A program made the translations under genes and the position numbers. The notes under the pieces are model-generated. The model ran no database searches. It was not told the DNA's origin and saw only the letters and a program-made list of their open reading frames with translations. From an uncultured Roseicyclus sp. (lineage in GTDB: Bacteria; Pseudomonadota; Alphaproteobacteria; Rhodobacterales; Rhodobacteraceae), in assembly GCA_947500415.1 (NCBI GenBank), contig CANMRT010000001.1, positions 1 to 64,000 of the forward strand: 64,000 bases of DNA. The letters run 5' to 3'. Position 1 is the first letter of the stretch. Each line of letters starts with the position of its first letter. Positions 3,771 through 11,235 of this stretch are shown here, piece after piece.

Positions 3771-4247
3771 ATGGCCAAGCAACCCGACAACCCAAACTAC
3801 AAAGTCATCGCCGAAAACCGGCGGGCGCGCTTCGATTATGCAATCGAAAGCGATCTTGAGGTTGGGATCATTCTGGAAGGGTCGGAGGTCAAAAGCCTGC
3901 GCTCTGGCGGCTCGAACATCGCGGAGAGCTATGCGGAGGTGAAGGACGGTGAGCTGTGGCTCGTGAACTCCTACATCGCGCCCTACAAACAAGCCAAGAC
4001 GTTCCAGCACGAGGAAAAGCGCCGCCGCAAACTGCTGGCCTCCAAACGCGAACTGTCACGCCTTTGGAATGCCACGCAGCGCGAGGGCATGACGCTTGTG
4101 CCGCTGGTCATGTACTTCAACCACAAGGGCTTCGTGAAAATGAAGATCGGCGTCGCGAAGGGTAAGAAGAACCAGGACAAACGCGAGACGTCGGCCAAGC
4201 GCGATTGGAACCGGCAAAAGCAGCGTTTGCTGAAGCAGAACGGCTGA
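3771..4247 (+). CDS. smpB: SsrA (tmRNA)-binding protein SmpB
   Basis: A 158-residue RNA-binding protein that delivers tmRNA to stalled ribosomes for trans-translation. Family motifs are clear: an N-terminal OB-fold core with [13 protein letters not shown], then NSYIAPY, and RELSRL before the basic C-terminal tail [15 protein letters not shown] that enters the empty mRNA channel. Length fits SmpB. The tmRNA gene itself was not found in this window. SmpB lies about 4 kb from arfB, the second rescue factor of the window. Confidence 0.97.
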
Positions 4248-7436: not shown

Positions 7437-8063
7437 ATGAAATCAATGACTAAACTCCTCCCCGGCGTTCTCGCCATGGCGGCCATCGTGGTCGCGTCGA
7501 ATATCCTTGTGCAATTCCTCTTCGGCCAATGGCTGACCTGGGGGGCTTTCACCTATCCACTCGCCTTCCTTGTGACCGACATCATGAACCGCGTTTATGG
7601 GGCTTCCATGGCCCGGCGCGTTGTTTTTGTTGGCTTTTTGGTGGGTGTTGCCTGCTCGCTGATCGGGACGCAGATCATGGGCGAGTTCGGGCCGCTGGTG
7701 ACGTTGCGCATCGCTTTGGGAAGTGGGATCGCGTTCCTGACGGCGCAGTTGCTGGACGTGGCCATTTTCGACCGGTTGCGGCATGGGAATTGGTGGCAAG
7801 CTCCTGTTATTTCTAGCTTAATTGGGTCTTCCGTCGACACGGCACTGTTCTTCTTCATCGCGTTCTCGGGCGCTTTGAACTCGGTTCTACCCGGCGATGT
7901 GGCCTGGGCGAATGAGGTTTTGCCGATCCTGGGCGTTGGGCCGGAAGCCGCTTTGTGGGTCAGCCTCGCCATCGCGGATTGGGGTGTCAAACTTGCCCTC
8001 GCTTTAATCGCGTTGATCCCATTCCGCCTCATCACACGGCGGTTTGTGGCACAGGTTGCGTAA
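7437..8063 (+). CDS. Queuosine precursor transporter (VUT family, YhhQ-like)
   Basis: A 208-residue inner-membrane protein with about six transmembrane helices. Its N-terminal half shows TYPLAFLVTDIMNRVYG, the hallmark of the vitamin uptake transporter family that imports queuosine precursors. SSVDTALFFFIAFSG and a C-terminal helix with KLALALIALIPFRL complete the fold. ATG 7437 (MKSMTKLLPG) is preferred over an in-frame extension to 7374; ATG 7446 is also possible. There is 82 bp after the aminotransferase, in which I could not convince myself of a preQ1 riboswitch. The leader RNA described next starts just after its stop codon. Confidence 0.88.
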   Translation: MKSMTKLLPGVLAMAAIVVASNILVQFLFGQWLTWGAFTYPLAFLVTDIMNRVYGASMARRVVFVGFLVGVACSLIGTQIMGEFGPLVTLRIALGSGIAFLTAQLLDVAIFDRLRHGNWWQAPVISSLIGSSVDTALFFFIAFSGALNSVLPGDVAWANEVLPILGVGPEAALWVSLAIADWGVKLALALIALIPFRLITRRFVAQVA

Positions 8064-8133
8064 TTTCTTTTGACATCCACAAAATCTGTGGCAGGCTGGG
8101 GATAACAGCAACCAATCGAAAGGAGGTGATCCA

Positions 8134-8190
8134 GTGTCTAGAAAGGTATTGGAGACGTGTGACGGGACAACTTGGGAGGCGCGCCTCTAG
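8134..8190 (+). CDS. 18-residue leader peptide with near-perfect Shine-Dalgarno
   Basis: GTG at 8134 opens an 18-codon frame ending with TAG at 8188-8190; the peptide is MSRKVLETCDGTTWEARL. The ribosome binding site AAAGGAGGTGATCC (8119-8132) matches the whole 3' end of 16S rRNA, far stronger than at any other gene in the window, with ideal spacing. The peptide has three Thr, one Cys and one Trp but no run of identical codons that would point to an amino acid. I do not recognise it. Its context inside a hairpin-rich, terminator-ended leader suggests that translating it matters more than the product. Confidence 0.6.
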   Translation: MSRKVLETCDGTTWEARL

Positions 8191-8259
8191 GGCAAACCCT
8201 TGGGCTTAGGCCCATCCCAAGGTGGTATATCCTAACCGATCCCACCTCCTGAACTTTCG

Positions 8260-8290
8260 AAAGGGCTGCTCACCTTGGGCAGCCCTTTTT
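8260..8290 (+). terminator. Rho-independent terminator of the leader RNA
   Basis: GGGCTGC (8263-8269) pairs with GCAGCCC (8279-8285), followed by five T residues (8286-8290) and preceded by A residues that can extend the stem. The loop and 3' arm contain ACCTTGGG, the target of the alternative antiterminator pairing with 8216-8223. Confidence 0.85.
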
Positions 8291-8300
8291 CGATGGAATA

Positions 8301-8418
8301 TGCGTTCAACTGAACGGAGATGCGTTCACTTGAGCAGAGTTTTTGCGAAAAATGCGTTCATCTGAGCAGATAAAAATGCGTTCAGATGGACGGGCCAATA
8401 TGTGCTCAGCTGAGCAGA
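8301..8418. repeat. Array of five imperfect palindromic repeats upstream of arfB
   Basis: Five related units begin at 8301, 8321, 8353, 8377 and 8401. Each reads close to TGCGTTCAnnTGAGCAGA, and four of five open with TGCGTTCA. The fifth contains the perfect palindrome TGCTCAGCTGAGCA (8403-8416); the first has CGTTCA-AC-TGAACG. Distances between starts are 20, 32, 24 and 24 bp. The array fills the space between the leader terminator and the arfB start, so it looks like a cluster of operator sites. Spacers are too short and irregular for CRISPR. Confidence 0.8.
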
Positions 8419-8434
8419 GTTTGACGAGGATGCG

Positions 8435-8857
8435 ATGCCCCTGCGCGTGACGGATACGATCACAATCGAGGATTGGGAAATCACGGAGCACTTCGTGCGC
8501 GCGAGCGGGCCGGGCGGGCAGAATGTGAACAAGGTGAATACGGCGGTCGAACTGCGGTTCGAGGCGGCGCGGTCGCCTGCGTTGAGCGACGCAGTGAAGG
8601 GCCGGCTGCGCCGGATCGCGGGGCGGCGGTGGACGAAGGACGGGGCGGTGATTTTGCAGGTCTCGGAGGAGCGGTCCCAGGCGCGGAATAGGGAGATCGC
8701 GCGGGAGCGGTTGGCAGAGCTGGTGCGGCGGGCTTTGGTGGCGCCGAAGAAGCGGCGGCCGACGCGGGTGTCCCTGAACCAGAAGCGCAAGCGGGTGGAG
8801 GCGAAGAAACGCCGCGGCGAGGTGAAGGCGCTGCGTGGGTCGGTGGGGGAGGATTGA
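8435..8857 (+). CDS. arfB: Alternative ribosome-rescue factor ArfB (peptidyl-tRNA hydrolase)
   Basis: A 140-residue, codon-independent release factor that hydrolyses peptidyl-tRNA on stalled ribosomes. The catalytic loop is ASGPGGQNVNKVNTAVELRF, containing the GGQ motif shared with class I release factors. The C terminus is a very basic tail (KKRRPTR, LNQKRKRVEAKKRRGEV) that enters the vacant mRNA channel, as in YaeJ/ArfB. ATG 8435 gives MPLRVTDTI. Upstream lie the palindromic array and the attenuator-like leader, so expression may be conditional. SmpB is also encoded nearby, as expected for a back-up rescue pathway. Confidence 0.95.
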   Translation: MPLRVTDTITIEDWEITEHFVRASGPGGQNVNKVNTAVELRFEAARSPALSDAVKGRLRRIAGRRWTKDGAVILQVSEERSQARNREIARERLAELVRRALVAPKKRRPTRVSLNQKRKRVEAKKRRGEVKALRGSVGED

Positions 8858-9018: not shown

Positions 9019-9891
9019 TTAAGGAGTGTAGAGACTACGAATTGTTTCGGACAGCTCGAATGCTTCCATCTCGCCAAACTCACAACAAGAAGCCAAAATA
9101 CGCGAAATTATCTCCTGCTTCACACCTGCAGTGCCGCCCGAAAGAGCCTTTTTGGCAAATGCATGAAATACATCCTCGAGATCATGGCCGTTGATGAGGT
9201 GGCGGTAGTCAAAAGGTAAGCTTGAACTGACGATTGCAGCTTCAGCTTCAAGTACTTCGCGCATGTCAGTCAGGCCTGATGTAGCTAGGACCCTAGTTGT
9301 ATAGTCGCCTATATTCACTCCTATACAGCCGCTTTTGAATGTCAGCGACTTTGCTGGACTAAGAAAACGGATCGGAAGACTCAAGCGGTTGGCCGCCCAA
9401 CGGAGAATGAATATACTCGTGACAGTTTCTACAATACTATCGTACTGCTTTTGATCCAAGTTATATCCCCAAATCAATGAAAACGCCTTGCCAACCACTC
9501 GAGGGCTTACAAAGTAACTTTCAATACAAGAAAAGTCCGTAAATATTACCTTTTCAAATTCACTCGAGCGATTTTCCAAAATGTCAAAATCCGCGTCGGC
9601 AAGAAAGTAAGCATTCCACGAGCTGGAATCTTCGAAGCTATTCTGGATGATTGCAGCAGCAGTTAGAAGGCGCTGACGATTCCCCGACGTCATATCAAGA
9701 CTGGCAACGTCTTCGTCCGGAACATCTACCGTACAAATGGGTTTAATGGAGACATTTTCAATTTTGAGTTCCGAGAGTAGCCATGACAGGAAACGCATGT
9801 CTGAATGGCCCTCGACAAATAGGTCTCGCAGTGAAGGCTCTCGTCGGTATAGAGTTGCTAGCTCCTTAATTTCCCTTCGACGACCCGACAT
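9019..9891 (-). CDS. DUF4435 (TOPRIM-like) protein, AriB-like effector candidate
   Basis: A 290-residue protein with the acidic motif order of DUF4435: LFVEGHSDMRFL (conserved Glu and Asp, near residue 24), FLADADFDIL (DxD, near residue 117) and FTDFSCIESYFVS (near residue 137, the tdyysiEnyl-type motif). In PARIS systems the DUF4435 protein AriB is the TOPRIM nuclease released by the ATPase AriA, and it attacks host tRNA after phage triggering. Length matches AriB. ATG 9891 directly follows the ATPase stop codon (TAGATG), so the genes are coupled. Base composition is AT-richer than the neighbourhood, consistent with horizontal acquisition. The PARIS assignment is inference from domain pairing; other DUF4435 partners exist. 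Confidence 0.78.
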   Translation of the reverse strand: MSGRRREIKELATLYRREPSLRDLFVEGHSDMRFLSWLLSELKIENVSIKPICTVDVPDEDVASLDMTSGNRQRLLTAAAIIQNSFEDSSSWNAYFLADADFDILENRSSEFEKVIFTDFSCIESYFVSPRVVGKAFSLIWGYNLDQKQYDSIVETVTSIFILRWAANRLSLPIRFLSPAKSLTFKSGCIGVNIGDYTTRVLATSGLTDMREVLEAEAAIVSSSLPFDYRHLINGHDLEDVFHAFAKKALSGGTAGVKQEIISRILASCCEFGEMEAFELSETIRSLYTP

Positions 9892-11235
9892 CTAAGCATT
9901 CAGTTCCACAACGCAGTCATCGTGGTTCGAGAGAATCTCAATAGAATGAGTCGCAATAATGAATTGTATATCACTATCGTATGCTATTTCTAGAAGTGCG
10001 CCCATCAACTTTCTTTGCCATTTGACATTAAGAGAAATTTCGGGCTCATCAATAATGAATACGCCTCCGGTTGAAGTTCCCAGCAAAACATTTGCTAGAA
10101 GAAGTAAAAGCTGACGCTCTCCAGAAGATAGATGGGTAGGTGTAAGTTTATTTAGATCAAGAGTGCGAATTTCAATACCGTTATCGACATCTATGGAGAG
10201 CGATTTTCGGTTAAAGAATGAATTGATTGAGTCTCGAAATTTTACAACCCGATTTCCGACGCTCTCAATATCCGAAATTCTTGACTCTAAGCTCTCCAAA
10301 TAAGGATCAAGTATGTAAGCAACAAGACTTACCTCATCCGGAGCTAACTTTGATATTAAGTTGTAAAATTCATTAGAAGGAATGCCCGCGAACAATCCAA
10401 GATCGACAAGGTCTTCCGTACGCTCCGCAATGCTGGAAATTCTGGATTGAATGGCGCTTCTGGCACTATCGCGATTCGCTTGGTCAGCAGCGCCAGAGGA
10501 AATGCGCTTCACAATTTCTACATATATTTGAGAGGCGGTCTGCTGGTTCTCATTGGAGGCCCTTAGCGCTTGCCGGCGCATCCATTGCATTACTCGACTA
10601 ATTGAAGAATTTAGGCGTACATCAGAATTTGCTTTATCACGATATCTACGCTTCTTTATGCGTTGATAATCATGGATCGTTAAGTGAAGAGAGAAATCGT
10701 CTTCCGCAAGATCGTCATCATCAAATATATCACTATTCAGATTGCGATCGTCCGATAGAAAGAAGCTTGTTGCACGCCCTCTCTCTAGGCGGTCAAAGAT
10801 TGCTTGTAGTCTACCTTCGTCAACATCGCCACTGGTTACTCGAATTTCATCGTCGTCCATTCTTGCGCTGACAGTGACACTATCTACTACAATATCGTCT
10901 TTTCGCAGAATGAGTGTGTAGGGACCCGGACCGCCTTGAGGTCGCTCCGCTGCAAGGCTAAAATTGTTCGCGAATGATATTTTAAACCTTTTGAATTCAG
11001 TCCTGGCGACGAACGAGCGGTGGCCCTTGGCGTCGGCTTTTGAGAGCATGTGGTGGAGGAGTGACAAAATCGTAGTTTTGCCCGTACCATTGTCACCGTA
11101 CAGAAGCATTAGTTGCCCAGGATGCTTCCCTCCTATTTTTGGAATTTCCAGATTGTAATCTAACTCGCCAAAGAGCCCATCAATTTCAATGCGGCTAATC
11201 TGAAGGCCGTCAGATAAAACGTCTTTTCCTTTCAA
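9892..11235 (-). CDS. ABC/SMC-type AAA ATPase, AriA-like (PARIS-like module)
   Basis: A 447-residue ATPase with Walker [18 protein letters not shown] (near residue 47), ABC signature [14 protein letters not shown], Walker [13 protein letters not shown] and H-loop [10 protein letters not shown]. Between them lies a helical, charged insertion, as in AAA_15/21 ATPases including AriA and OLD-type proteins. It probably senses phage and holds the DUF4435 partner inactive. The start is TTG 11235, which shares its bases with the pncB stop (TTGA); GGAGG about 7 nt upstream lies inside the last codons of pncB. Codon use and composition are AT-rich and unlike pncB, so the module looks acquired yet precisely coupled. 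Confidence 0.82.

Follow-up and report, generated by a model that had tools for sequence, protein, structure and literature searches.

A probable stand-alone RNA gene with a fixed 18-codon frame and an extended Shine-Dalgarno sequence in Rhodobacteraceae

Results

A conserved RNA element lies between a transporter gene and arfB.

The interval between a queuosine precursor transporter gene and the ribosome rescue gene arfB in an uncultured Roseicyclus sp. probably holds an RNA gene of its own, about 170 nucleotides (nt) long, with a fixed frame of 18 codons, a near-maximal Shine-Dalgarno (SD) sequence, and its own terminator. Judged from sequence comparison and folding models, it would be a divergent relative of the Caulobacter small RNA (sRNA) CC2171 and not an attenuator dedicated to arfB. 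The window analyzed here is a stretch of 64,000 nt, and all positions refer to it. In an earlier sequence-only reading, the locus had been taken for a leader that controls arfB through a short frame and a terminator/antiterminator switch, with a stand-alone small RNA carrying a short frame as the alternative; it is this alternative that fits best. The parts of the locus are as follows.

7446 to 8063, + strand: queuosine precursor transporter gene, the usual upstream neighbor (PF02592; TIGR00697 at 88.4 bits, cutoff 50.95)
8070 to 8075, + strand: TTGACA, read from the sequence as a possible −35 element of an own promoter, with a poorly defined −10 element
8118 to 8134, + strand: extended SD, 17 nt complementary to the 3′ end of the genome's own 16S rRNA
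8121 to 8128, + strand: 5′ strand of helix P1, AGGAGGTG, the SD core (7-pair SD/anti-SD helix, 98.2% of cells paired in alignment A4)
8130 to 8153, + strand: start-codon hairpin H1 (8130 to 8136 with 8147 to 8153; 95.2% of cells paired in A4)
8134 to 8190, + strand: 18-codon frame with GTG start and TAG stop at 8188 to 8190 (frame sequence VSRKVLETCDGTTWEARL)
8161 to 8165, + strand: 5′ strand of helix P2, partner 8236 to 8240, with one mismatch in the Roseicyclus window (5 of 5 pairs with some two-sided change in A4)
8171 to 8177, + strand: 5′ strand of helix P3, CTTGGGA, inside the frame, partner 8215 to 8221 (two-sided changes in 7 of 9 pairs in A4)
8190 to 8199, + strand: post-stop motif GGGCAAACCC, by motif comparison a variant of the relatives' GRGCARCC motif
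8215 to 8221, + strand: 3′ strand of P3, TCCCAAG (permutation test in 30 loci; A4)
8243 to 8250, + strand: 3′ strand of P1, CACCTCCT, the anti-SD (at least 7 contiguous pairs in 28 of 30 loci; A4)
about 8260 to 8292, + strand: intrinsic-terminator-like hairpin and T-run (sequence and fold; the arms covary in relatives)
8435 to 8857, + strand: arfB, ribosome rescue hydrolase, the frequent downstream neighbor (NF006718 at 169.6 bits, cutoff 100)

The frame, the hairpin with its T-run, and the exact complementarity between 8121 to 8128 and 8243 to 8250 were all found where the sequence-only reading had placed them. The match of the SD to 16S rRNA, put there at 14 nt, is longer: the 3′ end of the genome's own 16S gene (..GGCTGGATCACCTCCTTTCT) pairs without mismatch with 8118 to 8134, 17 nt that include the G of the GTG start. 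The predicted duplex has −35.2 kcal/mol, versus −18.4 kcal/mol for the SD with its own anti-SD strand (ViennaRNA). The 13-mer AAGGAGGTGATCC has one further copy in the 4.0-Mb genome, antisense to the 16S gene. Ordinary-looking small exported proteins at three other loci (L064, L242, and L243) also stand behind the full GAAAGGAGGTGATCC SD, and the RNA is therefore not defined by this module alone.

Searched by BLAST, positions 8070 to 8300 had DNA matches in 82 of 100 Rhodobacteraceae genomes (one genome per genus), and all 82 loci were examined. A covariance model, R1, was built from 13 relatives; the search of related genomes that had been proposed as a check on the first reading detected the element in 139 of 148 order-level genomes, with one match each, all in the window's family (66 of 72 genera), and the fold containing the SD and anti-SD covaries strongly. 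At an E value of ≤0.01, R1 matched 81 of the 82 loci (with the window replacing L001), 13 of these being training sequences; L294, L296, and L297 gave weak matches (19 to 23 bits) and L299 none. One genome (G076) lacked a BLAST match yet has an R1 match adjoining arfB, and the BLAST survey thus misses some elements. In L297 and L299, both from genomes of the family, the module is followed by a 26-codon ATG frame with no transporter or arfB match beside it, and these two loci resemble the types of other families.

The SD is part of a covarying fold and is predicted to close late.

The fold of 8090 to 8295 is more stable than its shuffled versions (z = −3.35; 1 of 200 shuffles was as stable). 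Four helices recur, namely P1 (SD/anti-SD), H1 (start codon), P2, and P3 (codons 12 to 15 with the post-stop stretch); a short outer stem is poorly conserved (73.3%). In the 82 rows of A4, which include one spurious antisense row (L028) and a few weak matches, 92.6% of the cells are paired, two-sided changes occur in 15 of 31 pairs, and covariation is 0.283, compared with 0.165 (standard deviation, 0.005) after shuffling and ≤0.071 for slid versions; the structure was set by hand on 13 sequences and then counted on the model-fitted A4, which leans towards structure. The permutation tests (30 loci and 169 loci) are independent of A4. In P1, the changes are one-sided G-U changes and a two-sided change is absent from the helix itself, as expected if the SD is pinned by 16S rRNA; L020 and L022 lack the 7-pair helix (2 of 30 loci). 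Scored independently of A4, the complementarity of P3 is 18.4 for matched and 15.24 for permuted strands (30 loci; standard deviation, 0.52; maximum, 17.03 of 5,000 permutations), and it is weaker in single loci, with z below 0 against shuffled linkers in 5 of 30. RNAalifold on a plain MAFFT alignment recovered H1, P2, and the terminator and did not recover P1 and P3. The closure of the SD by its anti-SD strand, a claim of the first reading, is backed as part of this covarying fold. At the edge of P2, a CTAAC stretch (8232 to 8236; residues 136 to 140 of the first row of alignment A1) is nearly invariant in 30 loci and is a possible tertiary motif or pairing seed.

The state of the SD is predicted to change as the RNA is made. 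According to ViennaRNA, the SD core in 30 loci has a mean unpaired probability of 0.54 when the RNA has grown to the frame's end (17 loci above 0.5), of 0.61 just before CTAAC (24 loci above 0.5), and of 0.05 with the anti-SD strand made (no locus above 0.5). In the Roseicyclus window, the predicted opening is weaker, with 0.02 once the frame is complete and 0.50 ahead of CTAAC. Over the loci, the start codon is predicted to be mostly paired at all stages (unpaired probability, 0.10 to 0.12).

Linkage to arfB is frequent and falls short of that of a dedicated attenuator.

As originally proposed, the state of ribosomes on the 18-codon frame would set terminator read-through into arfB. The arrangement of genes offers some support: in 65 of 82 genera, arfB lies in the same direction no more than 1 kb away, and the hairpin-to-arfB gap is ≤30 nt in 34 and ≤50 nt in 79 of the 147 arfB-adjacent loci among the matches listed, which leaves little or no room for a second promoter. 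In these 147 gaps, both ends were located by script, at least two rows look misplaced, and both sets were pooled, with some genomes present twice. Since the start of arfB is often less than 50 nt from the hairpin, read-through may supply arfB, plausibly in many genera, and where the gap is short, the gene arrangement suggests that arfB probably depends on it. The next genes of the 17 loci without adjacent arfB were assigned by Pfam (11 of 17 assigned). Five of these genomes were searched for arfB, and all have it, on another contig in two, 16 kb off on the other strand in one, and on the same strand 1.7 and 7.4 kb further downstream in two; the last two would also suit control in cis, and so would the fact that, according to passages of PMC8327144, Escherichia coli arfA is itself under rescue-dependent control.

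Several results speak against it. Among the 17 genera, eight have an unrelated co-directional next gene (RimK/zinc protease, amidase, cytochrome c, outer-membrane barrel, cobalamin adenosyltransferase, polyprenyl synthetase, exchanger, and ferritin-like) and three have a gene on the opposite strand (L014, L016, and L283), so the gene that an attenuator regulates is not always next. Outside the family, arfB or the transporter was not found within about 1.5 kb in 46 loci (28 + 18). Terminators beside arfB are no weaker either, the T-tract near arfB being the same as that without arfB or far from it (P = 0.75).

The proposed switch fared no better. The first reading gave 8216 to 8223 (CCCAAGGT) two alternative partners. 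The one at 8272 to 8279 (ACCTTGGG), inside the terminator, is present as a complement in the window and finds no comparative support. The P3 pairing (8215 to 8221 with 8171 to 8177) is kept in relatives. Although the best linker/terminator score in the Roseicyclus window is 25, over 30 loci the score is 16.57 for matched and 16.83 for permuted pairs, and we rejected this antiterminator. With the 5′ arm of the terminator, the linker scores below permuted pairs over 169 loci (15.68 versus 16.20; standard deviation, 0.13), a set in which the positive controls, P3 and the terminator arms, score above permuted pairs. A second candidate, pairing of a post-stop GGGCARCCC with the 5′ arm, was likewise discarded (13.66 matched versus 13.76 permuted; 169 loci). 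Mutually exclusive terminator and antiterminator pairings, the mark of an attenuator, are not kept in these relatives. The element does not appear to be a dedicated arfB attenuator, and we regard control of arfB in cis by ribosome status as rather unlikely.

In the Roseicyclus window itself, the gap between the hairpin and arfB is about 145 nt. It contains, at 8297 to 8417, five imperfect direct repeats of about 21 nt each around a GTTCANNTGAAC-like palindrome, which could be regulator sites or the arfB promoter region; because of this long, repeat-bearing gap, arfB may have its own promoter here. Also in this neighborhood is smpB (3771 to 4247), which encodes the tmRNA partner, about 4 kb ahead of arfB, so that two rescue genes lie close together. 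On the − strand beside arfB (9019 to 11235), profile matches identify an AAA ATPase (AriA/PtuA-like) and a DUF4435 partner (AriB-like), which by profile only we take to resemble a PARIS-type defense pair.

The length of the frame is fixed.

Conservation of the 18 codons, another check proposed with the first reading, is clear. Exactly 18 codons were counted in 73 of the 82 genera found by DNA similarity (71 GTG and 2 ATG starts); of the other frames, three have 20 codons, two have 26, and one has 12, and three loci could not be read from the fixed offset of the start. A second set of 149 loci combined 30 of the 82 with at least 119 found by a pattern that fixed the start and the majority of codons through codon 8 and left the length free; there, 146 of 148 readable frames among the matches listed have 18 codons. 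The 100-genome DNA similarity set and the pattern search set share some genomes, and pooled frame and gap counts include duplicates. In 30 aligned loci, the 57 frame columns are free of gaps, and the +1 and +2 frames are interrupted in 13 and 12 rows, respectively. The stops in these loci are TAG (17), TGA (11), and TAA (2), with no TGG; in 189 frames selected for having 18 codons, they are TAG (70), TGA (66), and TAA (53). A conserved open frame of fixed length is therefore present together with a ribosome-binding site, the features of a translated small RNA.

Is the 18-residue peptide the product, and the locus a small protein gene with autoregulated translation? The length and start of the frame are kept, and S2, R3, L6, E7, V10, G11, and T12 are nearly constant, as such a gene would have it. 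In 55 disjoint close pairs, however, the share of single changes that are synonymous is 0.326 versus 0.299 expected (P = 0.50), and for codons 2 to 12 it is 0.378 versus 0.305 (P = 0.33), neither excess being significant; over the whole frame in 30 aligned loci, codon position 3 is no freer than positions 1 and 2. Codons 12 to 15 are engaged in P3, and the peptides of other lineages are unlike this one. Selection on the peptide was not detected in this small test, and the nucleotides of the frame are also constrained by pairing; the peptide may thus be under weak constraint. Taken together, the comparisons show that the frame and its length are conserved, with no residue selection seen in the small test, and a peptide product appears quite improbable to us. 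Given a fixed length and no visible selection on residues, what seems to be favored is translation as such, not the peptide.

The opposite possibility, a purely base-pairing sRNA in which the frame is incidental, is one to which we give little credence. The relative is filed in Rfam as an sRNA family, and the C-rich anti-SD strand could base pair with other mRNAs at their SDs, a mechanism proposed for Caulobacter SisA (PMC12559287); a fixed frame length closed by any of three stop codons, and never by TGG, is unexpected without translation.

The RNA may have a promoter of its own.

A consensus scan reported no promoter at the locus. It also missed the terminator, since its loop limit is 8 and the hairpin here has a 9-nt loop on a 7-bp G+C stem; it reported a weaker hairpin at 8039 to 8059 (0.7 expected by chance). 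Across the relatives, a TTG-type motif stands 46 to 57 nt ahead of the SD in 56 of 73 loci (a count without chance control). The transporter gene lies directly upstream in 78 of 82 genera, and its match ends 59 to 177 nt before the SD (27 oriented loci); an RNA processed from the 3′ untranslated region (3′ UTR) of the transporter mRNA would agree with this linkage, and we consider it highly improbable, given the fairly steady distance of the TTG-type motif (again without chance control) and the related RNAs that exist without a transporter nearby.

The element is related to Rfam family CC2171.

Rfam RF01867 (CC2171, a Caulobacter sRNA) matches 8110 to 8286 over the full model (positions 1 to 159) with 43.2 bits (E = 4e−8), below the gathering score of 75 bits. 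The 5′ module GAAAGGAGGUGAUCC-N-RUG-UC and the terminal hairpin by which the family is recognized are both present; the alignment lacks the letters of CAUUGUC/GACAAUG, the CC2171 stem that precedes the terminator, and the element's own fold differs. In the class, the RF01867 model matched 45 of 190 genomes at an E value of ≤0.01, 7 of them above the cutoff. Among 14 control genomes, it matched Caulobacter vibrioides and Deinobacterium, so that weak RF01867 matches can be due to chance. Of 385 class genomes, 56 contain the exact module RAAAGGAGGTGATCCNDTGWC, each in a single copy; across the phylum it occurs in 43 of 299 genomes, all among the 86 of the class and none among the 213 others.

The 53-entry class list contains one locus of the window's own family (L245) and the three exported-protein-like loci mentioned above (L064, L242, and L243); these four were omitted from neighbor clustering, the SD openness and motif counts also omitted L082, and the SD openness count further omitted 4 loci lacking a detected hairpin. 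A shared neighbor outside the family was rejected, the largest cluster comprising 4 of 49 loci. Frame lengths outside the family vary and are steady within lineages, with 18 codons in 8 of 10 loci of one family (f13), 23 in 6 of 6 fetched loci of one genus (g431), and 14 in 5 of 5 of another (g364). Two forms of the element, with frames of 24 and 18 codons (L041 and L236), occur together in one f13 genome (G111). GRGCARCC lies 54 to 57 nt past the start in 8 of 48 outside loci (mean of 0.2 after shuffling, with a maximum of 2 in 200 rounds) and at 56 to 57 nt, at the stop codon, in 25 of 73 Rhodobacteraceae; the shared motif at the same distance favors common descent over convergence on 16S rRNA.

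In the open-access literature that we searched, no paper on the function of CC2171 was found. In the parts available, RF01867 is tabulated in the Rfam 15 paper (PMC11701678) and appears in a Mesorhizobium huakuii list (PMC5596092), and the portions seen of PMC4117421, PMC2873474, PMC5082802, PMC4809877, PMC5107571, and PMC11633108 do not settle its function. One conserved intergenic Paracoccus sRNA, as described in part of PMC5107571, could be the same RNA.

Discussion

We favor a stand-alone RNA gene whose frame is translated, and its fold suggests how it might work. By folding prediction, the SD would be open on part of the nascent RNA and would close once the 3′ anti-SD strand is made; because of this closure, a ribosome would have to load early or displace the closed helix through its stronger 16S pairing. 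Two forms of the RNA, one ribosome loaded and open and the other closed, would then coexist, and their balance may mirror the initiation capacity of the cell. The output would most likely lie in trans or in the stability of the RNA itself, and arfB may receive read-through where it is close behind the hairpin. We put forward as a hypothesis that the RNA serves as a reporter of initiation capacity and that its C-rich strand acts in trans.

Some points weigh against the stand-alone gene. Its promoter is putative, the predicted opening of the SD in the Roseicyclus window is weak and the start codon stays paired in the model, P3 is weak in several single loci, and P2 has its mismatch in that window. 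The linkage to the transporter (78 of 82) is also what a 3′-UTR RNA would show, and the closeness of arfB to the hairpin speaks for some role in cis.

A bolder proposal, which we consider unlikely, is that this mostly single-copy alphaproteobacterial RNA senses free 30S subunits throughout the class. Its near-maximal 16S pairing would compete with internal closure, and its frame would be translated for translation's sake. The ribosome-occupied form in Rhodobacteraceae would free the C-rich anti-SD strand, and ribosome availability would set both the activity of the RNA in trans and, by read-through, the dose of ArfB.

An RNA family listed as sRNA appears to carry a frame of lineage-fixed length (18, 23, or 14 codons); such a length, with a peptide that bears no sign of selection, suggests that selection maintains translation for its own sake. 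An SD/anti-SD helix within a covarying fold locks the same module in Rhodobacteraceae, where terminator read-through may be needed for the rescue gene arfB in many genera. If confirmed, this would provide a compact model for an RNA-based reading of the cell's initiation capacity, and the annotation of a widespread RNA family would change.

Leader-peptide attenuators of the trp/ilv type have a short frame with a strong SD ahead of a terminator and a co-directional gene. The element is like them in its short frame, strong SD, terminator, and often co-directional gene; it differs in having no conserved antiterminator and no run of regulatory codons and in persisting without the downstream gene. 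In E. coli and Neisseria, as passages of PMC8327144 describe, arfA is controlled by trans-translation, with a hairpin in arfA giving rise to an mRNA without a stop codon. A hairpin near a rescue factor gene is common to both, whereas the hairpin of the present locus precedes arfB, and the short frame still ends in a stop codon. Pos19 of Rhodobacter sphaeroides, likened here by description alone, is also a small RNA with a reading frame and comes from the same family; it differs in being described, in the sections seen of PMC5036791, as 219 nt long and RpoE dependent.

The closest comparison is with CC2171. The near-identical 5′ module GAAAGGAGGUGAUCCAGUGUCU and the terminal hairpin are common to both, and other CC2171 matches also have short frames and a similar length. 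In the Rhodobacteraceae element, the CC2171 stem CAUUGUC/GACAAUG is replaced by the SD/anti-SD helix, and the SD is predicted to be closed (mean unpaired probability, 0.05; 30 loci), whereas elsewhere it is predicted to be more open (0.38; above 0.5 in 10 of 44 loci). Because R1 barely reaches the outside members (best score, 21.6 bits over 59 loci), in which the SD is predicted to be more open, we call the element, on these sequence comparisons, a divergent relative of CC2171 and not a member of it.
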